Assembly: GCA_944358545.1 (NCBI GenBank)
Contig: CALVRJ010000014.1
Span: forward strand, 1 to 32,986
Direction of reading: 5' to 3'
Source: an uncultured Bacilli bacterium
GTDB lineage: Bacteria; Bacillota_I; Bacilli_A; RF39; UBA660
DNA: 32,986 nucleotides
This document shows positions 11,101 through 31,917 of the stretch, piece after piece; within the stretch, counting starts at the first letter, position 1; each line of letters starts with the position of its first letter. A model generated the notes under the pieces. It was not told the DNA's origin and did not search any database. It worked only from the letters and a program-made list of their open reading frames with translations. The position numbers and the translations under genes are program-made.

Positions 11101-14034
11101 ATGCATAGAGAATATAAAAAAAGAAAAATAATAATATTTTCTCTAATCGGAATTCTTTTTTTAATGGCTGTAGGTTATTCAGCATTCCAAACAAAATTAA
11201 ATATATCAAGTACCAGTAATATAACAAGTGTTTGGGACGTTGAAATAACAAATGTTCAAACCAAAGAAATAAATGGTCTCGCTGAAAATGTATATGATCC
11301 TACATTTAGTAAACTAGAAGCAAATATGGAGGCTAACTTCTATGAACCAGGAGATTATATAACCTATATAGTAACTGTATCTAATTTAGGAACCTTAGAT
11401 GCAACATTAGATTCTATTAAACTTAATATGCCATCCCAAGATGTAATTAACTTTAAAGTAGAAGGAGCTACATCAAAAGAATCATTAAAAGTAGGCGAAC
11501 ATAAAGATATCGAAGTAACCATGGAATATACAGGAAATAATCCTGATAATATAAGTAGTGTCGAAATGGATGTTAATTTAGATTATGTTCAAGATGGAAA
11601 CAGTACAAACTTCTCCGATGCCAATAGTCCAGTAGTAGATAATTTAAGAATAAACGATATCATATTAACTCCAGATGAAGAAAGTGTAAAAGCAGAAATA
11701 GAAGCTGAAAATGCGATAAAATATTATTTCTCTATTGATAATAATGAATGGTATGAAAGTACAAGTAATATCTATAATATTTATCATTTAAAACCAAATA
11801 CAACATATACCATGTATGTAAAGGCAGAAGGAAGTAATGGTGATGTAGTATATTCAAGTAAACCATTTACAACCTTAGATAATACCCCACCAGAAATAAA
11901 TATAACTGTAGGAGATAATGTCAAAGGAGAAAATGGATGGTATAAAGGTTTATCATTAAATACCGAAGTAACCGATAATGATAAAGTCAAAGAAGTATTA
12001 TACTGTGTAGGAAAAGATTGTACGCCAAGTAAAGTTTTAACTTTAGAAAATAATAAAACAACCATAACTTTAGATAGTAAAAAAGAAGAACAAGAATTAT
12101 GTATTAAAGCTACCGATATGAAAGGCAATGTAAGTAATAAATGTAGTGGTGAATACAAAGTAGATGGAACAGAACCAACAATCTCTAATATGAATATAAA
12201 TACCTTAGATGATACAATGACAATTGAGCTTACTGCCACAGATAATGAAAGTGGACTTTATAAATATTACTTCAGTAAAGATGGCGGAAAGACCTATATC
12301 GAAAGTGATAATCCAAACTATACATTTACATCACTTGATGAAGGAGATTATTTAGTAACAGCCTATGTCAAAGATACAGCAGGAAATACATCCGAGATAC
12401 AGGCAAAATCCACAGCCATAAGATATACATCATATTGTAAGAAGAATGGAATAGATAATTTTGGTGATTGTCTAATTGCAACGGAAGCTCAAAATCCAAA
12501 TATCGATGAAGCTAAAACATTCATTGAATCAAAGGGTACTCCAGACTTTACCAAAACAAGCCCAAGCGTAGTTTATGATGAAAAACATGCAACAACAACC
12601 TCAACATGGTCAACTACATCTACATTAGCTTATATAGGAACAGGATATACATTTAATCCAAATACCGGAATATATGCAATAACAGGAGGAAGTCTTAGAA
12701 ATCCAAATGAGATAGATTTAAATGACGGAAATACTTATTATACAAATAATAGAACTGACTGGGTATCTACTGGTTCGGTAATAAATAGAATATCTAATGT
12801 GAGTTCAAAAACAGATAGTAATACTGGAACTGTAACTTCTACTTTAACGGAATATAAATATTCACAAACACCAAAAAGTTATGATACAAGTACAGTTGGA
12901 ATGTATGCGGATAATGACGATGATGGAAAAACATATTATTATCGTGGTTCAGTAGCTGGTAATTATGTTAAATTTGCTGGATATTACTGGAGAGTAATTA
13001 GAGTAAATGGCGATGGAACAGTTCGAATGATATATGATGGAACAACTCCTCATGATAATGGAGAATCAAGTAGTAATAGACAAGTTGGAACGCAAGCATT
13101 TAATAGTTATATTAACGATAATACATATGTTGGATATATGTATGCAGACCCAAGTAATTTTGTCGAAACAAATAGTGGAAGTGCGTCATTTACATATAAT
13201 TCAGGTTTATCTGCAACATCAAAATATTATTTTGGAACAAGTTATACACTTGATAAAAATGGAAGAGGATATAAGGTTTCAGGCGATTTAATTCAAGGAA
13301 CAATTGCTTCTGATAAAGTTGGATATTATACATGCTTTAGTACAAATAAAGATGCGACATGTCAAAGGCTTTTCTATACATTAAAGTATAATTCTTCTAC
13401 TTCAATGAATGTAAGTGGAGTAGGATATGGAACTACAAGCAAGGAACAATCCCAAAGTAATGATGTAAATAGTACAATGAAAAATTATTTAGATAACTGG
13501 TATAAGAACAATTTGAATAGTTACACAGATAAAATTTCTAAAGATACAATATTCTGTAATAACAGGAATATTTCAAATAAAACAAGTGGGACATATAATA
13601 ATGCTGGATATGGAATGAATCCGACAATATATGGATATGAAAGATATGTTAACTGGGCATCACAAGGTAAACTTGGACCAGATTTAAGTTGTCCAGCAAA
13701 TGATAGTTTTAGTGTAAGCTCATCAAAAGGTAATGGTAAACTTACTTATCCAGTTGGATTAATAACATTAGATGAAGCTAATATGGCTGGAGGTATTAAT
13801 GGTTCTGCAAATACACTTTACTATTTGTATAGTGGTCAGAATTATTGGACAATGTCGCCGTCCGACTTCAGCGATTGGTTCGATGCGGGTGAGGCCCGTG
13901 TCGCTTCGTCGGGTGAGCTTGGCCTCGTCTGGACTAGTAGTGGGTACGGCGTCCGCCCAGTTGTCAATCTAGATTCTGATAATCTGACATTCACTGGAAA
14001 TGGAACAGTGAGCGATCCATATATCATAAGTTAA
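11101..14034 (+). CDS. DGR variable surface protein (C-type-lectin-like C-terminus)
   Basis: 977 residues. Residues 9-31 form a hydrophobic signal anchor (KRKIIIFSLIGILFLMAVGY) after a basic start, of the kind seen in TasA/CalY-like exported proteins. An N-terminal beta domain is followed by two or three Ig/FN3-like modules (NTPPEINITVGDN near residue 261, DGTEPTISNMNI near 355). A long Ser/Thr/Asn/Tyr-rich region then leads to a conserved block with VKFAGYYWRVIRVNGDGTVR near residue 625. The C-terminal part has YWTMSPSDF, WFDAGEARVASSGE and GYGVRPVV, typical of the C-type-lectin fold diversified by DGRs. Residues 918-954 are the variable repeat. No C-terminal LPXTG or second anchor exists, so the lectin end should face outward. 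Start ATG 11101 follows AGGAGTGAT. Its ligand cannot be read from sequence. Confidence 0.93.
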   Translation: MHREYKKRKIIIFSLIGILFLMAVGYSAFQTKLNISSTSNITSVWDVEITNVQTKEINGLAENVYDPTFSKLEANMEANFYEPGDYITYIVTVSNLGTLDATLDSIKLNMPSQDVINFKVEGATSKESLKVGEHKDIEVTMEYTGNNPDNISSVEMDVNLDYVQDGNSTNFSDANSPVVDNLRINDIILTPDEESVKAEIEAENAIKYYFSIDNNEWYESTSNIYNIYHLKPNTTYTMYVKAEGSNGDVVYSSKPFTTLDNTPPEINITVGDNVKGENGWYKGLSLNTEVTDNDKVKEVLYCVGKDCTPSKVLTLENNKTTITLDSKKEEQELCIKATDMKGNVSNKCSGEYKVDGTEPTISNMNINTLDDTMTIELTATDNESGLYKYYFSKDGGKTYIESDNPNYTFTSLDEGDYLVTAYVKDTAGNTSEIQAKSTAIRYTSYCKKNGIDNFGDCLIATEAQNPNIDEAKTFIESKGTPDFTKTSPSVVYDEKHATTTSTWSTTSTLAYIGTGYTFNPNTGIYAITGGSLRNPNEIDLNDGNTYYTNNRTDWVSTGSVINRISNVSSKTDSNTGTVTSTLTEYKYSQTPKSYDTSTVGMYADNDDDGKTYYYRGSVAGNYVKFAGYYWRVIRVNGDGTVRMIYDGTTPHDNGESSSNRQVGTQAFNSYINDNTYVGYMYADPSNFVETNSGSASFTYNSGLSATSKYYFGTSYTLDKNGRGYKVSGDLIQGTIASDKVGYYTCFSTNKDATCQRLFYTLKYNSSTSMNVSGVGYGTTSKEQSQSNDVNSTMKNYLDNWYKNNLNSYTDKISKDTIFCNNRNISNKTSGTYNNAGYGMNPTIYGYERYVNWASQGKLGPDLSCPANDSFSVSSSKGNGKLTYPVGLITLDEANMAGGINGSANTLYYLYSGQNYWTMSPSDFSDWFDAGEARVASSGELGLVWTSSGYGVRPVVNLDSDNLTFTGNGTVSDPYIIS
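13853..13962 (+). other. DGR variable repeat (VR)
   Basis: Aligns without gaps to TR1 at +290. Bases 13853-13960 match 14143-14250 except at 13 sites: 13864, 13871, 13873, 13882, 13888, 13889, 13903, 13922, 13924, 13925, 13928, 13940 and 13960. TR1 has A at all 13; VR has G at ten, T at two (13925, 13928) and C at one (13924). None of the non-A template bases differ. Eleven residues change: 922, 924, 925, 928, 930, 935, 941, 942, 943, 947 and 954, mostly Asn in the template. The 3' end TGGGTACGGCGTCCGCCCA is shared with both templates and would include the initiation-of-mutagenic-homing site. Homology stops at 13962. Confidence 0.96.
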
Positions 14035-14056
14035 TTTGATGTGAGAAGTAAAATAT

Positions 14057-14086
14057 CTGTCAAAAATGACTCATCATTTTTGACAG
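14057..14086. repeat. 13-bp hairpin after the DGR surface gene
   Basis: CTGTCAAAAATGA (14057-14069) and its exact reverse complement (14074-14086) flank the tetraloop CTCA. It lies 23 bases after the stop codon and about 95 bases after VR. A T-rich stretch follows only after some 10 bases. It may be a terminator or the DNA hairpin found downstream of VR in several DGRs that aids retrohoming. Confidence 0.75.
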
Positions 14087-14104
14087 CCTAGTTTGTTTTT
14101 TGAA

Positions 14105-14475
14105 AATATAGGGACTAATCTCAAAAGTGTACGCCGATTCTTTGTCGCCGTCCAACTTCAACAATTGGTTCAATGCGAATGAGGCCCGTGTCACTTCGTC
14201 GGGTGAGCTTGACAACGACTGGACTAGTAATGGGTACGGCGTCCGCCCAATTTCCTACTACGGTTAGTGATAAATTTACTAACGAACCGAGATGTTATGA
14301 GGCTACGGCTAATAACGAGAGGAAGTAATTGTTTAACAATAATCGTTCTAGATTGGAAACAAGGTTAGTTCCTTGGCTATGCCTAAAAAGATGATATAGA
14401 CAGTTTGTGACTATTTAAGATATTTATAAGTCTAAAGCTATATCGGTGGGATAAGGAACTTTTCCCTTTTCGCCA
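14105..14475 (+). ncRNA. DGR template RNA unit 1 (contains TR1)
   Basis: First of two non-coding units of 371 bases, offset by 400 bases from the second. A 38-base 5' part (14105-14142) precedes TR1. The 225-base 3' part (14251-14475) differs from the other copy at only five sites (14402, 14420, 14427, 14430, 14457), all transitions. Visible hairpins are TAGTGA/TTACTA (14265-14281), GTTAT/ATAAC (14294-14316), ATTGT/ACAAT (14328-14340), CAAGG/CCTTG (14360-14375) and GATATAG/CTATATC (14393-14444), plus a GGAA/TTCC hairpin near the end. In the Bordetella phage DGR, RNA beyond TR is needed for reverse transcription; this part probably has that role. No open frame here looks like a real gene. Confidence 0.75.
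14143..14250 (+). other. DGR template repeat 1 (TR1)
   Basis: 108 bases, the source of the local VR. Read in the frame of the surface protein it has AAC or AAT codons at nearly all positions that vary in VR, the classic arrangement in which adenine mutagenesis gives many residues and no stop codons. Twenty-four of the 108 bases are A; 13 of them are changed in VR. The frame continues past the repeat as ISYYG and then a stop, which suggests TR was once copied from the end of a similar gene. Confidence 0.96.
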
Positions 14476-14504
14476 TGTAATAGTTAATAATTTATTTAAT
14501 ATGC

Positions 14505-14875
14505 AATATAGGGACTAATCTCAAAAGTGTACGCCGATTTTTTGTCGCCGTCCAACTTCAACAATTGGTTCAATGCGAAAGAGGCCAACGTCACTTCGTC
14601 TGGCGAGCTAGACCACAACAACACTTGGAATGGGTACGGCGTCCGCCCAATTTCCTACTACGGTTAGTGATAAATTTACTAACGAACCGAGATGTTATGA
14701 GGCTACGGCTAATAACGAGAGGAAGTAATTGTTTAACAATAATCGTTCTAGATTGGAAACAAGGTTAGTTCCTTGGCTATGCCTAAAAAGATGATATAGA
14801 CGGTTTGTGACTATTTAAGGTATTTACAAATCTAAAGCTATATCGGTGGGATAAGGGACTTTTCCCTTTTCGCCA
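14505..14875 (+). ncRNA. DGR template RNA unit 2 (contains TR2)
   Basis: Second copy of the template unit, separated from the first by about 29 unrelated AT-rich bases. The 5' part (14505-14542) is nearly identical to unit 1, with one change (T at 14540 for C at 14140). The 3' part (14651-14875) keeps all the hairpins listed for unit 1, and its end reads GGGACTTTTCCC, where the A-to-G change still allows pairing. The MutS-like gene starts 21 bases after the unit. Divergence is concentrated inside the template core, which fits duplication followed by change of the template alone. Confidence 0.75.
14543..14650 (+). other. DGR template repeat 2 (TR2)
   Basis: 108 bases aligned to TR1 at +400. 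The first 45 bases and the last 19 match TR1, but the centre differs, including at non-A positions (for example GAGGCCAACG for GAGGCCCGTG, and GACCACAACAACACTTGGAA for GACAACGACTGGACTAGTAA). Twenty-nine bases are A. In frame it reads SPSNFNNWFNAKEANV, then SSGELDHNNTWNGYGVRP, with Asn codons at the same kinds of position. The local VR has non-A mismatches to TR2, so TR2 is not its parent and probably serves another gene outside the window. Confidence 0.9.
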
Positions 14876-14896
14876 CGCATTATAATGGAGGATAAT

Positions 14897-15289
14897 ATGA
14901 AGTTAATAGATATTTATAACGATTATAAAAGTAAATATCCAGATGTAGTAATTTTTATTAAAAGTGGTAAATTTTATTTAACTTTTGATAATGATGCACT
15001 TATAAGTGGTTTGATTTGTGGTTATAAGAGGGTTAATAATAAATTAGGTTTCCCTGAACAGTCTTTAGATAAAGTTATAAATTTGTTTAAAGAAAAAAAT
15101 ATAAATATAATTATCGATGATAAGCAGTATTTTAACTCTTGTAATGATTATTATTTATGGTTAAAACGAGCGAATGATGATTTAATGGTAGGTAATATGG
15201 CAAATACTTTATTACAAGTAATTAAAGAAAAAATTACAAGTGATTTTAATAATTATGAGAAAATAAGAAACTTTTTGAATGAATTATAA
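14897..15289 (+). CDS. MutS-domain-I-like DGR accessory protein (MSL)
   Basis: 130 residues. The N-terminal half, KLIDIYNDYKSKYPDVVIFI followed by KSGKFYLTFDNDA, resembles the mismatch-recognition domain I of MutS (a tyrosine-proline-aspartate stretch, then GxFYxxF). No other MutS domain or ATPase is present. MutS-like small proteins are a known class of DGR accessory gene. Start ATG 14897 follows GGAGG with five bases of spacing; the in-frame ATG at 14885 lies upstream of that site. The gene follows template unit 2 and overlaps the avd start by 11 bases, so it is part of the retroelement operon. Its role in template choice or cDNA transfer is unknown. Confidence 0.8.
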   Translation: MKLIDIYNDYKSKYPDVVIFIKSGKFYLTFDNDALISGLICGYKRVNNKLGFPEQSLDKVINLFKEKNINIIIDDKQYFNSCNDYYLWLKRANDDLMVGNMANTLLQVIKEKITSDFNNYEKIRNFLNEL

Positions 15290-15644
15290 TTTTAAGATTT
15301 TAAACAGTACTTACAGGACGATAAATTATATTAATAAATTACTTGTAAATTATCCTAAAAAGGAAGTTATTTTAAAGAATAATATTGAAAGAACGTGTTA
15401 TGAAGCAGTGGAATTTATTTTTGCTTATAATATTAATAATACCGATAGGATTAGGGAAAAAAATTTAAAGGATTTAGTTATAAAATTATCGATGCTTGAT
15501 TTTTATATGAGAGTTTCATTTGACAAGAGGTTAATAAGTAGTCATCAATATGAGGTTACCGGAAGATTTATAACTGAAATAAGAAAAATGGTTTATGGAC
15601 TTTTAAGAAGAAGGAATGAGGTAAATGAGGAAGTTAAAAAGTAA
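15279..15644 (+). CDS. avd: Avd-like DGR accessory protein
   Basis: 121 residues, strongly helical and basic, with the pattern of the four-helix-bundle Avd/S23-like family: an N-terminal helix (TYRTINYINKLLVNYPKKE), a second helix with ERTCYEAVEFIFAYN, a third with LKDLVIKLSMLDFYMRVSFD, and a last with GRFITEIRKMVYGLLRRR. Avd forms a pentameric basic barrel that binds template RNA and the reverse transcriptase and is required for mutagenic cDNA synthesis. The start overlaps the MutS-like gene, and the end overlaps the next start by 20 bases. Size and position between TR and RT are as expected. Confidence 0.88.
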   Translation: MNYNFKILNSTYRTINYINKLLVNYPKKEVILKNNIERTCYEAVEFIFAYNINNTDRIREKNLKDLVIKLSMLDFYMRVSFDKRLISSHQYEVTGRFITEIRKMVYGLLRRRNEVNEEVKK

Positions 15645-16251
15645 GAGATTAATAATTTTAGGAGTTATTATAATAGTTATTATTTTACTGATTTTAGTTA
15701 TATTTTTAAATATAAAGTCAGATAAAAAAGTTGTTATAAAAAAAGATGAAGCAACAAAACTTTATGATAATATTAAAACTGGAAGTTGTACGGATATTCC
15801 TAACGATAATAATGGCGTTTTGCTTAATTTAGTTTTTGCAGATTTGAAAAATAAAGATAGCCTCAGTGATGATATAAATTTGGATGATTTTTTAAATTCT
15901 TTGGAGAGTGTTAGTGGAAATAAAAAGATGGATTATACTATAAATGATTTTATTTATGAAGGATATAGTTATACTTTAGATGGTAATAAAATAAGTAGAA
16001 AAAAAGCTAGTTGTCCAAAGGTTAGTTATACTTCAAAACTTTATGGTTATACGTATAATAATGATAATTTAGAGCTTTATATAAAAATGGGTTATATTGA
16101 TAATGGTAAGGTTTATGATTTGAGTAATAAAGAGATTGGAGAGTATGATAAGAAAACCATTAATAAAATTTTAGATGATGGGACTTTGCAAATTTATAGT
16201 TATCAAATAGATAACAATAAATATTATTTTAAAAAAATAATAGAGGGATAA
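15625..16251 (+). CDS. Unknown membrane-anchored protein inside the DGR operon
   Basis: 208 residues, not recognised. A basic start (MRKLKSKR) is followed by a strong hydrophobic helix at about residues 9-30 (LIILGVIIIVIILLILVIFL), then a soluble region of about 175 residues rich in Lys, Asp, Asn and Tyr with two cysteines (TGSCTDIP near 54 and KKASCPKVSY near 128) that could form a disulfide. The topology is therefore one N-terminal anchor with the bulk outside. The start follows GAGGTAA within avd, and the stop is one base before the RT start, so it is translated as part of the avd-RT unit. It might help surface display of the variable protein; that is speculation. Confidence 0.8.
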   Translation: MRKLKSKRLIILGVIIIVIILLILVIFLNIKSDKKVVIKKDEATKLYDNIKTGSCTDIPNDNNGVLLNLVFADLKNKDSLSDDINLDDFLNSLESVSGNKKMDYTINDFIYEGYSYTLDGNKISRKKASCPKVSYTSKLYGYTYNNDNLELYIKMGYIDNGKVYDLSNKEIGEYDKKTINKILDDGTLQIYSYQIDNNKYYFKKIIEG

Positions 16252-16252
16252 A

Positions 16253-17353
16253 ATGAATTATAATAAGATTGTTTCGTTTCTGAATTTAAAGTTTATTTAT
16301 AGAAAAATTATGGTTAGTACTTGTCATAAAGAGAAGCTAGTTCGTTTTGAACTAGCTTTTACTAGTAATATGGTAAAAATATATGATGATTTGAAAAATA
16401 AAGAGTATACACATGGTGATTATAATGTTTTTTTAATTAAAGAACCTAAATATAGGGTTATTATGAGTGAAAATATGTATGATAAAATAGTCAATCATTT
16501 AGTTAGTTATTTTATTTTAATTCCTTGTTTAGAAAAGAAGCTTATTGATACAAATGTAGCAACAAGAAAAAGAAAAGGAACCAAATGCGGAATATTTTAT
16601 TTGAAAAAGTATTTAAATAAAATAAAAATTAATCATGATAATGTTTATGTTTTAAAATGTGATATTAGTAAATATTTTTATAATATTAATCATGAGATTT
16701 TATTTTCAATGCTTAAAGAAGATATTAAAGATGAAAATGTTTTTTTACTAATAAAGGAGATTATTCAGAGTACAGATAGACAAAATGTAAATGAAAAAAT
16801 AGATAGTCAAGTAAAGAAAGAGATAGATAAAATTTTAAGTTCAAATGTTACTAATAAAGATGATTTGATTTTAGAGCTTCGAAGAATACCTCATTATAAT
16901 TTAGGAAAAGGTCTTCCAATTGGTAATGAAACCAGTCAGATTTTAGCTATTTATTATCTAAATAAGATGGATCATTATATAAAAGAGAAGTTAAAGGTTA
17001 AATATTATATAAGGTATATGGACGATTTTATACTTATCCATCATGATAAAAAATTTTTAAAGAAATGTCTTAAGGAGATAAATAAAATGGTATGTGATTT
17101 AGATTTGAGTTTGAATAAAAAAACACAGATTTATGATATGAAAAAAGGTTTTTGTTTTTTGGGCTACAAGTTTGTTTTTAAGGGTAAAAAACTTATAATT
17201 TTAGTTAATAGTAAAACAAAGAAGAGAATAAAGCGAAAATTACGTAAACTTTGTAAAAAAGATAAGTTAAAGTATGAGCTTTCAAAAAAAAGTTATAAAG
17301 GTTATTTTATAGTGGCAAATAGTAAAGAGTTTAGGTATAGACTTAAGATTTAG
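16253..17353 (+). CDS. DGR reverse transcriptase
   Basis: 366 residues. RT motifs in order: LIKEPKYRVI (residues 61-70), RKRKGT near 105, KCDISKYFYNINH with the first catalytic Asp at 137, LPIGNETSQ at 221-229, YIRYMDDFILI with the YMDD box at 255-258, and GFCFLGYKF near 299. The GxxxSQ form of motif 4 (where other retroelement RTs carry QG) is the hallmark of DGR enzymes. No maturase or endonuclease domain is present, which excludes a group II intron RT. A lysine-rich insert of about 45 residues precedes motif 4, and the C-terminal thumb is very basic. Catalytic residues are intact. It would copy the TR RNA with adenine-directed errors together with Avd. Confidence 0.95.
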   Translation: MNYNKIVSFLNLKFIYRKIMVSTCHKEKLVRFELAFTSNMVKIYDDLKNKEYTHGDYNVFLIKEPKYRVIMSENMYDKIVNHLVSYFILIPCLEKKLIDTNVATRKRKGTKCGIFYLKKYLNKIKINHDNVYVLKCDISKYFYNINHEILFSMLKEDIKDENVFLLIKEIIQSTDRQNVNEKIDSQVKKEIDKILSSNVTNKDDLILELRRIPHYNLGKGLPIGNETSQILAIYYLNKMDHYIKEKLKVKYYIRYMDDFILIHHDKKFLKKCLKEINKMVCDLDLSLNKKTQIYDMKKGFCFLGYKFVFKGKKLIILVNSKTKKRIKRKLRKLCKKDKLKYELSKKSYKGYFIVANSKEFRYRLKI

Positions 17354-27351: not shown

Positions 27352-27379
27352 TATGGCAACAATGATAGGCGGTGATGGT

Positions 27380-28524
27380 ATGCAAATACTAAAAGGCTAT
27401 GTATTTAGACTTTATCCAAATGAAAAACAAACAGAGCTAATTAATAAAACTATTGGATGTTCAAGGTTTATTTATAATTACTTTTTAGATGATAAAATTA
27501 AAGAATATAAAGAAACTAAAAAAAGTAAATCAGCTTATGACCAAATAAAGTTAATACCATCACTTTCTAAAGAATATCCATTTTTAAAAGAAGTAGATAG
27601 TTGCAGTTTAAGAAATAGTTTATTTGATTTAGATAATGCTTATAAGAGATTTTATAATGGAAGTGGTTATCCTAGATTTAAAGCTAAAGGTGTTCATGAT
27701 AGTTATAAGACTAATAATATAAAAAGTAGTTATAAAGGTAATAATTATAATTCTATAAAGCTAGATTTAAAAAACAAAATAATTATTTTACCAAAATTAA
27801 AGGAAGTAAAGATAAGAGGATATAGAAATAAAGAAGTAGTGCCTGGTGAAGTAAAAAGTGCCGTAATTAAAAAAGAAGCTGGTAAGTATTATGTAAGTGT
27901 CTTAATCGAAGAAGAATTAATAAAACCAGCATTCAATCCTCAAAGTATAGTAGGTATTGACTTAGGTATAAAAGATTTAATCGTAACTAGTTATAATGAA
28001 AAAATAGAAAATAAGATAAAACTTAATACTAAAAGAATGATAGGACTACAAAGAGGTCTAGCTAGATGTAAAAAAGGTAGTAAAAACAGATATAAACTAA
28101 AACTCAAAATACAAAGATTATTTATGAAAATAAGAAATGCGAGAAAGCATATGTTACATGATATTACAAATAAATTAATAAAAGAAAATGACATTATAGT
28201 AACTGAGAATTTAGATGTAAAGGGTATGCAGAAAAATCACTATGTGGCAAAAGGCTTAAATGAAAACCCAATATCCGAGATAATAAGAGTACTTAAATAT
28301 AAAGCTAATTTGAATAATAAAAAACTAATCCAAATAGATACTATCCAAGTAGTCAAATATGTAGTAGTTGTAATTATCAAAATAAAGATGTAAAAGATTT
28401 AAGTATAAGGAAATGGGAATGCCCAGTATGTCACACTATACATGAACGTGATTATAATGCAGCTGTTAATATAATGTTCGAAGGGGTTAAAATATATATG
28501 AAAGGTTTAGAACAAACTATCTAA
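27380..28524 (+). pseudogene. tnpB: IS200/IS605-type TnpB, frameshifted near the C-terminus
   Basis: TnpB is an RNA-guided nuclease of IS200/IS605 elements and an ancestor of Cas12. MQILKGYVFRLYPNEKQTEL is the usual start. The RuvC-type region has VGIDLGIKDLIV (first catalytic Asp near residue 195) and IIVTENLDVKGM (Glu). At about 28340 the frame shifts: the first frame ends at a stop at 28391-28393, but the next frame continues as [15 protein letters not shown], then [17 protein letters not shown], ending at 28524. This restores the zinc-finger cysteines and the last RuvC Asp. One missing base explains it, either a true mutation or a sequencing error. No TnpA gene is present. ATG 27380 is chosen over 27353 because of the GGTGATGGT before it and the family start. 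Confidence 0.88.
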
Positions 28525-28699: not shown

Positions 28700-29458
28700 T
28701 TATATATCTAAGGTTTCAATGTCGTCATCGGAATTTTCGTCTTTATTTTCAGATGAGCTATTTTCATTAGTGTTTAAAACTTCGATATTGTTTGATTCAT
28801 TTTCTGGGATAATATTTGGTTTTTCAACTTTTTTTATAGAATTATCGCTTATTTGTTTTTCTTGGTATTCTTCGATGATTTTTTCATCACTTTTTTTTAT
28901 TAGCTTTGAAATGATAAATTTACTTATTAAGATTATTGTCCATATAGTAAAGAGGATGGTTGTACTTTCAATTAAGACAAGGACGTTTTGGTTAGTGTAT
29001 ACTTCTTCAGTACTATAAATATTGATGTTGTTAGAGATTATTTGTTCGAGGGTGTAGACCATCATAATCATAATAACGATGAAGAAGATAGAATTTATAA
29101 CTTTGGTTAAATTTTTAATATTTTTGCGATTTATACTGATTAAGAAGATAATGTTTGTTATAATTATTAAAATAACGTAGGTTGCGAGATTTGGAAAGAA
29201 TATTTGCATGAATATTTGGTTAATTAGGTTATCAAATATTTTGCTTAAGTATGAATTATACCGAATAATAATAAATGAAATAATAAATATCCAGCCAATT
29301 ATGTATAAGGTTTTGCCAATTTTTTTATTTTTCTTGATGTTAATTATCATAGCTAAGGTAAAGATAATACCTAAGATGATAAATAAGATAGAACTTGGAG
29401 ATCCTTCAAAGATGTTTAATAAGGTATCAAAAAATGTACCAGTTTCCAGTTTAATCAT
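28700..29458 (-). CDS. Polytopic membrane protein with acidic tail, next to sortase
   Basis: 252 residues, not recognised as a named family. About five membrane helices occupy residues 20-185 (ILFIILGIIFTLAMIINI, IIGWIFIISFIIIRY, YVILIIITNIIFLISI, FFIVIMIMMVYTLEQII, ILFTIWTIILISKFII). A hydrophilic tail of some 65 residues follows, rich in Glu, Asn and Ser and ending SDDDIETLDI. The start overlaps the sortase stop by one base, so the two are co-translated. A partner or substrate-handling role for the sortase is inference from the gene order. Confidence 0.75.
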   Translation of the reverse strand: MIKLETGTFFDTLLNIFEGSPSSILFIILGIIFTLAMIINIKKNKKIGKTLYIIGWIFIISFIIIRYNSYLSKIFDNLINQIFMQIFFPNLATYVILIIITNIIFLISINRKNIKNLTKVINSIFFIVIMIMMVYTLEQIISNNINIYSTEEVYTNQNVLVLIESTTILFTIWTIILISKFIISKLIKKSDEKIIEEYQEKQISDNSIKKVEKPNIIPENESNNIEVLNTNENSSSENKDENSDDDIETLDI

Positions 29459-30120
29459 TATATCCCTTCTTTACTTATTAATTCTCCAATGTAGACAGTT
29501 TGGAGTGTATCGCTGTCTTTAGTACAGGTTATTAAAGTAATACATGTTTTATTCGTATCACGGTAAATAGCTACTTGACCATTTTTAGGTACAGTATATA
29601 TTTTTACTATTTGATAGGTGTATTTGTTATTATTATAATAGACACTTACTAAATCATTATCCGCAAGTTGCCAGAGATTTTTAAAATAGCTTATAGATGC
29701 GGTTCCAGAGTGAGCGGCAAGGATAAGGTTTCCTTTATCTTTATCTGGCCAATCTGATGGACTAATTACTTGAATTCCTTTATTAACGTTATTATTTGGG
29801 TGGCCGATGTAATAAAATCCTTGTCTTAAATTTATTTTCTCAATTTCGAGATAGGCTGTATAATTGTCAGTGTTTTGTGGTGTGGGTGCGGGAGTTGGTT
29901 CCGGTTCACTTGGAGCCGGAGTTGGTTCTGACTTAGTTTCTTCGTCTTCTTTATTGACTTCTTCAGGCATTTGGTTTCCATATAACTTTAAATTTACCGT
30001 TTCAAAGGTTAAGTTTATTTTGGAAATTACATAGTTATAAGATAGGAGAGCAATGCCTATTAGGCCGATTATGAACATTACGATAATCAAGATACGGTTT
30101 ATAGTCATCTTTTTTTTCAT
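29458..30120 (-). CDS. Sortase-family protein, catalytic Arg apparently replaced
   Basis: 220 residues. A basic start and membrane helix (about 8-27) anchor it, and a Glu/Pro-rich linker (about 52-82, TPAPSEPEPTPAPT) leads to the sortase barrel. The catalytic His is in LAAHSG (H137) and the Cys in LITC (C199). Sortases join surface proteins to the cell wall or to each other through a Cys-His-Arg site. The Arg normally follows the Cys by about 8-13 residues; here the segment is KDSDTLQTVYIGEL with Gln near 207 and no Arg. Size and layout fit class D or E enzymes. The start follows AAGGAGACTGG. No LPXTG protein is seen in this window. Confidence 0.88.
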   Translation of the reverse strand: MKKKMTINRILIIVMFIIGLIGIALLSYNYVISKINLTFETVNLKLYGNQMPEEVNKEDEETKSEPTPAPSEPEPTPAPTPQNTDNYTAYLEIEKINLRQGFYYIGHPNNNVNKGIQVISPSDWPDKDKGNLILAAHSGTASISYFKNLWQLADNDLVSVYYNNNKYTYQIVKIYTVPKNGQVAIYRDTNKTCITLITCTKDSDTLQTVYIGELISKEGI

Positions 30121-30146
30121 TTTCCAGTCTCCTTATCATCTACTTA

Positions 30147-30176
30147 ATTTTATCATTCAAATAATGTTTAAGTCAA
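30147..30176 (-). promoter_or_regulatory. Promoter of the sortase operon
   Basis: On the minus strand TTGACT (30176-30171), 18 bases, TAAAAT (30152-30147), with a TGA extension before the -10 box. Confidence 0.65.
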
Positions 30177-30249
30177 TTAGATTATTTTTTTCTTTTTTAA
30201 TTACACATAAATTTCATAAAGGTATTGTAAAATTTAATTGGTGATTTAA

Positions 30250-31917
30250 ATGAAGAGAGAGATAATACGAAAAATTTTATATTTTATTTTAATTTTAGCG
30301 ATTTTAGTTGTGGCAATATATTTTGGGATTAGAGTATTTGATTTGAAGAGAAGTTCTGATTTAAAAGATGTAACTTTTCTTGAAAATCATATTAAGATTG
30401 TAGACAGTAGTATTGGTTCTTCAGTAAAAGAGGTTTTAAAAGATCAGGATATGGATATTTATGATATGAATTATCAGAATGTCATAAGTGAAAAGATAAA
30501 TGATTTACTTTTAGATGATTATACACCTGATAAGCCACTTATTGTTTATAATCCGTATGGAACAAATAATAATTCAGTTAATGTTTATTTCGAGACAGAA
30601 GAGCCTGCTTCTGTAAGTTATACGATTAAAGTAAAAGGTTTTGATGATTTTACAAGAAATTTGAAAAACGATGGTGATGATAACTATACTTTGAATCACA
30701 GTTATCAAATAATGGGCTTTATTTTGGGACATGAGAACGAGCTTGAGCTTAAAGTGACAAATGAAGACGGAGATAGTAAGACTTATAATTTTAAATTTGA
30801 TATGCGTGATTTGAAAAACAATGCAAAAACAAAGCTTGATTCAGATACAAAAACTGACGATGAGCTTACAGATGGACTTTATACGATTTTAGGTAATGAT
30901 TCAGAAAGTCAAGATTATGTATTTATATATGATAATGATGGAGTAATCAGAGGTGAAATTCCAATTATCGGTTATAGGGCACATAGAATTTTATTTAGAG
31001 ATGATAAGATGTATTTTAGTGTTGGTCAACAGACAATGGCTGAAGTTAATAATCTTGGAAAGATTACACATCTATATGATTTAGGCAGATATCAATTACA
31101 TCACGATTATGTGTTTGATGATGATGGTAATATTGTGATTTTAGCTGGCGATACAAAAGCTGATACTTGTGAAGATATGATAATTAGACTTAACCTTAGT
31201 AGTGGCGATGTCGATAGAGTTCTCGATTTAGGAGATTTGTTTGGCGATATGAAGAAAAAAGCTAAACTTCCTGAAGGTGGAAATAGTGGAGATGATGGCG
31301 ACGGACTTGATTGGATTCATCTTAATACTATTCAATATTTAGGTAATGATGATGTAATTGTGAGTTCAAGAGAACTTAGTACAATAATTAAGCTTGACGA
31401 TATTTTTGATAATCCAAAGATAGATTATTTAATTGGAGCAGATGAAGTTTGGAAAGGTACTAAGGAAGAAAAATATTTACTTGATAAAAAAAGTGACTTT
31501 ACTATTCAAGGTGGACAACATTCAGTTACTTATCAAAAAATAAACAATGATAGTTATTATTTATATTTATTTGATAATAATATTGGTGTTAGTACTACAA
31601 GAAGTGATATCAAATGGAAAAATGCCGGTCTTACAAATACAAAAGGTAAGGGTGGAGATGCTTCTCATTATTATAAATATTTAGTTAATGATAAGGATAG
31701 AACTTTTGAACTTGTTAGTGAATTTGATGTTCCTTATTCAGGTTATGTTAGTAGTGTTCAAGAACGCGGCGATAATATAATTGTTGATAGTGGTATGGCA
31801 TGTAAATTCGGTGAATATACTGAAGATGGAGAATTAATAAAACAATTTGACATCGATTGTGAAAAGTTTATATATAGAGTTTATAAATACGATTTTCCTA
31901 ATTTGTTTGTAGATTAA
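30250..31917 (+). CDS. Arylsulfotransferase (ASST)-family protein, membrane-anchored
   Basis: 555 residues. One N-terminal membrane helix (about 9-26) is followed by a beta-rich domain to about residue 190, then a propeller-like region with the ASST pattern: YRAHRILFRDDKMYFSVG, YQLHHDYVFDDDGNIVILAG, DWIHLNTIQYLGNDDVIVSS followed by RELSTIIKLD, GGQHSVTY and YLFDNNIG. ASST enzymes transfer sulfate between phenolic compounds through a sulfohistidine. The several conserved His residues support the fold, but Gram-positive members are poorly characterised and the activity is not proven. Start ATG 30250 follows TTGGTGATTTAA. It is divergent from the sortase operon. Confidence 0.82.
   Translation: MKREIIRKILYFILILAILVVAIYFGIRVFDLKRSSDLKDVTFLENHIKIVDSSIGSSVKEVLKDQDMDIYDMNYQNVISEKINDLLLDDYTPDKPLIVYNPYGTNNNSVNVYFETEEPASVSYTIKVKGFDDFTRNLKNDGDDNYTLNHSYQIMGFILGHENELELKVTNEDGDSKTYNFKFDMRDLKNNAKTKLDSDTKTDDELTDGLYTILGNDSESQDYVFIYDNDGVIRGEIPIIGYRAHRILFRDDKMYFSVGQQTMAEVNNLGKITHLYDLGRYQLHHDYVFDDDGNIVILAGDTKADTCEDMIIRLNLSSGDVDRVLDLGDLFGDMKKKAKLPEGGNSGDDGDGLDWIHLNTIQYLGNDDVIVSSRELSTIIKLDDIFDNPKIDYLIGADEVWKGTKEEKYLLDKKSDFTIQGGQHSVTYQKINNDSYYLYLFDNNIGVSTTRSDIKWKNAGLTNTKGKGGDASHYYKYLVNDKDRTFELVSEFDVPYSGYVSSVQERGDNIIVDSGMACKFGEYTEDGELIKQFDIDCEKFIYRVYKYDFPNLFVD

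Follow-up and report, generated by a model that had tools for sequence, protein, structure and literature searches.

Diversity-generating retroelements (DGRs) are usually described as systems in which a single template rewrites a single site. In the DGR of Bordetella phage BPP-1 (mtd/avd/TR/brt), a variable repeat (VR) departs from its template repeat (TR) specifically at adenines, a GC-rich initiation of mutagenic homing (IMH) sequence lies at the 3' end of the VR, a structured RNA is found 3' of the TR and a hairpin stands downstream of the VR. The TvpA DGR of Treponema denticola is chromosomal, targets a surface protein and has remote paralogous targets (PMC4891356), that of Stenotrophomonas sp. 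SKA14 combines one reverse transcriptase (RT) with two TRs and six VRs (PMC6642488), and in cyanobacterial DGRs many VR genes per genome are served in trans (PMC7517822, PMC8867640). Here we analyzed the DGR found in a stretch of 32,986 nucleotides (hereafter, the window) from an uncultured Bacilli bacterium (contig CALVRJ010000014.1 of the assembly GCA_944358545.1). The data strongly suggest that this element is a chromosomal and probably still functional DGR, diversifying, in an anchored surface protein, the C-terminal part, which presumably faces the ligand.

The element shares with BPP-1 the features listed above, with a candidate counterpart in the case of the hairpin, as well as a homologous RT and Avd, and differs from it in having a cellular surface protein as target, two template units, the TR before avd and a gene for a MutS-like protein (MSL). 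In T. denticola, TR variants occur between strains and the accessory gene is of the HRDC type, whereas here two templates belong to one cassette and the accessory gene is MSL (PMC4891356). In the accessible part of PMC6642488, DGRs of the SKA14 type are not described as having tandem arrays of RNA units, chimeric VRs or truncated copies with one 3' RNA in common. The cyanobacterial systems belong to another host phylum and act on other target proteins, the comparison of the RT lineage being made through one Anabaena RT only.

The variable protein (VP) is 977 residues long (11101..14034; all the parts of the DGR described here lie on the forward strand) and is composed of an N-terminal membrane anchor, Ig/PKD/fn3-like repeats and a C-terminal DUF6273-related domain; the latter contains the VR (13853..13962), an island of 64% GC within a gene of 30% GC. 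The alignment of the VR with its donor, TR1 (14143..14252), revealed 13 mismatches over 110 nt, each of them falling on one of the 24 adenines of TR1, the other 86 bases being unchanged (hypergeometric P = 9.4e-11). The signature reported in a preliminary description of this DNA is therefore exact, and variation at non-adenine template positions, looked for in the comparison of TR1 with the VR, was not found. The changes (10 A>G, two A>T and one A>C) never fall on an A of the VR; moreover, VR and TR share the GC-rich, IMH-like 3' end GGGTACGGCGTCCGCCCA, after which the two sequences diverge. On the strength of this alignment, the current VR is the product of an adenine-directed change of TR1.

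At the protein level, 11 of the 36 encoded residues are changed, which is the count previously proposed; the assignment of these residues to a C-type-lectin-like domain is unconfirmed at the level of the fold, and an AlphaFold/Foldseek analysis, hhalign against Mtd and a sequence search of the PDB gave it no support either way. Indeed, the AlphaFold model of the variable domain was too poor (predicted local distance difference test, pLDDT, of 59) and had no fold match in Foldseek, and seven of the 17 homologues of the domain matched Pfam DUF6273 (best E 3.7e-11). The idea that phage proteins account for most of the described DGR targets is contradicted by the surveys, in which, according to the available text of PMC6199706, the majority of the identified DGRs are bacterial or archaeal.

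Based on the BPP-1 model, the structured 3' RNA of the TR transcript would bind RT and Avd. Priming would occur inside this 3' RNA, the TR transcript would be copied into cDNA, the adenines would be misread during this synthesis and the cDNA would anneal at the GC-rich IMH, replacing the VR from the IMH onward (PMC12875486, PMC3240598). The VP so diversified might have a binding function.

The analysis of the RT (16253..17353), based on profiles, a PDB search and a phylogenetic tree, is in agreement with this picture. The protein carries YMDD and the sequence LPIGNETSQ, corresponding to the DGR motif [IL]GxxxSQ (QGxxxSP in group II), and, as the preliminary description had anticipated, it clusters in the tree with the RTs of BPP-1, Anabaena and phage DGRs (support 98/92), apart from those of group II introns and retrons. 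Its best PDB match is 8ub7 (328 residues, E 4e-26), which we take to be the BPP-1 enzyme, the length being equal to that of BPP-1 Brt; a group II RT reached only 3e-10. The identity with BPP-1 Brt is 26% (E 1e-31). A group II intron RT was rejected on the basis of both the maturase score (103 bits vs. a cut-off of 300) and the different clade, and a retron RT on the basis of 38.5 bits vs. a cut-off of 235 and of its position elsewhere in the tree. In a sister species, the tail of the RT abuts a transposase-like frame at a contig edge (L069:1-550), suggesting an interrupted DGR. Several RT copies of the genus, such as that of L288, exhibit in-frame stops or frameshifts, yet templates and diversified targets persist (for example in genomes G028 and G031); it is possible that these genomes are supplied in trans by another RT.

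Avd (15279..15644) was recognized through the PHROG family Avd of DGR (2e-20), Pfam bAvd (1e-12) and BPP-1 Bbp7 (E 1e-6). The gene lying between avd and the RT gene codes for a single-pass membrane protein (15625..16251) and is probably a partner of the VP rather than a core part of the DGR, because its homologues, in both the window genome and the sister genome, directly follow remote VPs with no adjacent DGR. Thus, the complete DGR previously proposed was recovered with its parts in order, that is, with the open reading frames (ORFs) lying where they had been placed and with RT, Avd, TR/VR pair, IMH and structured RNA all found.

As for the MSL gene (14885..15289, with a true start probably at 14897), it codes for a stand-alone MutS domain I of 134 residues (Pfam MutS_I, 3.3e-7, score 31.0 vs. 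a cut-off of 20.6), whose AlphaFold model (pLDDT 94) matches MutS domain I structures in Foldseek (best E 7e-5). A full MutS mismatch-repair protein was rejected for it: only domain I is present, without the ATPase domain V, and the one full MutS of the host is a separate ORF of 852 residues, the sole match to MutS_V. The gene is separate in about 30 of the 49 related loci and represents the C-terminal part of the RT in eight, so that MSL is best read, from this linkage and these fusions, as a DGR component. The MSL accessory (Pfam PF01624), a gene for MutS domain I linked to DGRs, is named in PMC10053308, which cites an earlier survey and which, in its available text, does not mention RT-MSL fusions or a degraded FxE motif. 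MSL might bind either the RT complex or the mismatched duplex of cDNA and VR. The chances seem to us evenly balanced that it instead serves the RT/Avd complex as a structural adaptor and takes no part in the handling of mismatches: its FxE mismatch motif reads FYL, with the mismatch-contacting Phe retained and the Glu lost, the Glu is lost in most members, the Onthousia group having lost the Phe as well, and the protein can occur fused to the RT; however, its fold is clearly that of a mismatch-recognition domain and the full MutS of the host could undo the edits of the DGR.

The template repeats of the preliminary description are present and can be refined into two copies of a unit of about 375 nt, each made up of a TR and a structured RNA. 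According to the repeat comparison and the RNA model, unit 1 (14105..14482) includes a 5' arm, TR1 and the structured 3' RNA, and unit 2 (14505..14882) embeds a distinct template, TR2 (14543..14652), which is the best match of a remote VR on contig C57. The flanks of the two units are 98% identical (6 differences in 251 sites) and their TR cores 87% (14 in 110, without adenine bias); the cores have thus diverged faster than the flanks (P = 2e-4). The number of templates varies among relatives: L024, L025 and L026 have one unit each, L120 has one truncated and one full copy, L022 and L115 have a truncated copy followed by two full units, L023 has three truncated copies followed by a full one, and L192, from another genus, has four full tandem template-RNA units (481-1726). 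Relatives also differ in the array position used as donor: the VR derives from unit 1 in the window, unit 3 in L115 and in L192, copy 4 in L023 and the truncated copy 1 in L022.

Besides these arrays, single copies of unusual structure were observed. The first array copy of L023 (3169-3281) is adenine-poor (14 vs. about 30), as if the template had been overwritten by a mutated cDNA; this explanation, leaving 18 adenine but seven other mismatches, was not retained and is suggestive at most. In genome G017, the VP frame continues straight into the template 3' RNA, ending with GVRPISYYS* (L117:3213-3300), and the RT is still open; from this continuity, a merger of the VR with the TR seems to have taken place, and no separate TR is left.

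The alignment of 11 full units yielded a consensus fold in which 15 pairs covary and a closing helix of 11 bp joins GGG[AG][CT]TAATCT (with minor variants), lying just upstream of the TR, with AGGTTAGTTCC in the 3' RNA. In unit 1 the two arms are GGGACTAATCT (14111..14121) and AGGTTAGTTCC (14362..14372), and the helix comparison places those of unit 2 at 14511..14521 and 14762..14772. The helix is fully paired in all the 11 units (121 of 121 cells), with compensatory C-G/U-A changes, and its covariation score exceeds those of all the 500 shuffles and of the slid versions. The covariance model of the 3' RNA detected members outside the training set in further genera, with E values as low as 1e-18, and no matching family was found in Rfam. 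The 5' arm precedes every template copy, the truncated ones included, and precedes no VR. Hence, the pairing of its own arm could deliver a truncated template to the shared 3' RNA, and a recruitment of this kind would explain the use as donors of copies lacking a 3' RNA of their own. It is therefore conceivable that the closing helix governs the choice between templates.

The genome of the window harbors six VP copies, that is, the local one and five clear paralogues. The paralogue on contig C57 has a GC-rich VR that fits TR2 better than either TR1 or the local VR, with changes at 12 of 27 adenines and at five of 76 other bases (P = 3e-5). A TR1/TR2 chimera was tried for this VR and discarded, the mosaic analysis retaining TR2 alone with residual non-adenine differences. 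TR2 might serve this remote paralogue and/or permit the scaffold of the site to change in addition to the variable residues. In the sister species, whose DNA downstream of the DGR is 84.5% identical to that of the window, the VP is 91% identical and carries a different VR, which departs from TR1 almost exclusively at TR1 adenines. In genome G031 (L273-L283, on many contigs), about 10 dispersed genes have VRs built on a single frame sequence, and their variation is found mainly at columns where the template of G028, another species of the genus, has an adenine. Its own template was not found in that genome; the pattern of variation suggests a large trans-diversified repertoire within one small genome. 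The VRs of G047 (L142 and L143) are not explained by the present TR of that genome. In G018, a remote VP (L290, on contig C2) and the DGR-linked VP are identical over 1071 bases that take in the VR, and in L290 this stretch is followed by a near-unmutated template 1 copy and a second VP tail, as expected for a product of gene conversion or insertion.

A further question concerns the way in which several templates might contribute to one VR. In G016, the 5' part of the DGR-adjacent VR fits template 2 and its 3' part fits template 1, leaving 11 adenine and no other mismatches (the best single template leaves five non-adenine ones), and a remote VR, with 10 adenine and two other mismatches (eight non-adenine ones with the best single template), is the opposite chimera, down to a length difference of one codon. 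The occurrence of two opposite chimeras in one genome makes lost templates a less simple explanation. We tentatively propose a combinatorial DGR, which we consider possible rather than probable: different templates, some of them truncated and with one priming RNA in common, would form tandem arrays, their near-identical 5' arms would compete for one 3' arm, and the RT would copy any of them or jump between them. The target would thereby have its scaffold shuffled, codon-length differences being part of the shuffling, and would also acquire random residues at the adenines, both in cis and, in trans, in many paralogues, and MSL would shield the mismatched duplex from MutS.

Conversely, the second unit and the arrays might be by-products of tandem duplication and ordinary recombination, with only one template at work and the chimeric VRs generated by homologous gene conversion, either from one VP gene to another or among templates; to this view we assign somewhat less than an even chance. 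The near-identity of the flanks of the two units is in agreement with it, and gene conversion of VPs is real, as the 100% identity over 1071 bp between two loci of G018 demonstrates, so that it could yield chimeric VRs after retrohoming. Templates recombine too: units 1 and 2 of L192 have identical 3' halves and different 5' halves. However, TR cores that outpace their flanks, donors that, depending on the species, occupy position 1, 3 or 4 of the array, and the opposite order of the two G016 mosaics speak against it.

Earlier papers already describe DGRs as such, their remote targets, the MSL accessory and cassettes containing two TRs (PMC4891356, PMC6642488, PMC7517822, PMC8867640, PMC10053308). 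In the accessible literature, many subscription papers lying outside the search, we found no tandem arrays of units with truncated members, no chimeric VRs, no closing helix of this kind and no RT-MSL fusions, and the use of multiple templates with chimeric products looks new. If several templates are indeed arrayed and recombined into the target, then a bacterium would combine the shuffling of segments with the targeted hypermutation of a surface protein, and this diversification would extend, in common gut lineages, over a family of dispersed genes. The closing helix, the RT-MSL fusions and the fixed-loop hairpin described below bear on the choice of the template RNA, the recognition of the target and the handling of host mismatch repair.

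Downstream of the VR of the window, 94 nt past its end, lies a candidate target hairpin/cruciform (14057..14086) with a perfect stem of 13 bp and the tetraloop CTCA. In 13 DGR-linked loci a hairpin is found past the VP stop, 80-109 nt after the VR, with a fully paired stem whose sequence varies freely and a loop reading CTCT, CTCA or CTCC; in a second lineage, which includes the RT-MSL fusions, the loops are ACCC, ACCT or CCCT and the distance is mostly similar. This resembles the BPP-1 target hairpin, also downstream of the VR, in which the stem sequence is free and the loop sequence matters, although the latter is placed at 4-34 nt and has a GRNA loop, vs. about 100 nt and CTC(A/T/C) here (PMC3240598). 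The position of the hairpin, just past the VP stop codon and ahead of the templates, would also suit a transcription terminator of the VP with no role in the DGR, but we consider this rather unlikely: no U tract follows the hairpin, its loop is fixed while the stem changes completely (TGTCAAAAATGA, TTCCCAAAACGA, CGTGTGGTAATGA), a distinct terminator-like hairpin with a T run comes after it in L192, and it was not found at remote VPs or their VRs. A separate hairpin (GTTGTTTCGTAAGAAACAAC, with variants), located at the stop codon of the VP and present in seven of the seven relatives compared, was not used because it is absent from the window.

Some points weigh against a DGR that still works in the way outlined above. 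The fold of the variable domain resisted good modelling. The VR on C57 retains its five non-adenine differences from TR2 within the core, so that the present TR2 is not its exact donor and an ancestor of TR2, or a lost template, is likely. L022, L024 and L115 lack MSL yet have diversified VRs, and MSL is therefore not essential. A relic, in which the VR was diversified formerly and the cassette is now dead, appears nevertheless improbable. In its favor, RT copies broken by stops are common in the genus, a transposase-like sequence adjoins the RT tail of the sister species and G017, with its VR fused to the 3' RNA, retains no separate TR; in the window, however, all the ORFs of the DGR and the YMDD are intact, and the lack of background substitutions between TR1 and VR over 110 nt counts against it because long inactivity would have produced some.

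As regards the genomic setting, the window is one entire contig of a host assembly of 1.38 Mb in 66 contigs. The DGR is flanked by nusA, infB, infC and rplT on one side and by a glycosyltransferase-4/MraY-like gene, tig and priA on the other, which bears out the chromosomal location amid housekeeping genes indicated by the preliminary description; no phage structural genes were seen among the scanned ORFs around it. A phage origin was rejected, the nearest RT from a viral contig and the nearest phage RT both being 37% identical. The relatives are uncultured gut genomes of Bacilli/"Tenericutes", Candidatus Onthousia included, and the RT is present in 32 of 44 genomes of the host genus and, under a stricter cut-off, in 84 of 291 genomes of the host family. 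TR/VR pairs were detected in 63 of the 113 loci or sub-loci searched, some of which are the same locus counted twice; the pooled adenine figure of the TR/VR finder (932 of 969) was not used as evidence because the finder itself selects for adenine bias. Elsewhere in the window, a gene of the IS605 OrfB/TnpB family (27353-28393; Pfam OrfB_IS605, 6e-23) and a sortase gene adjoining an arylsulfotransferase (ASST) gene (29458-31917) were observed.

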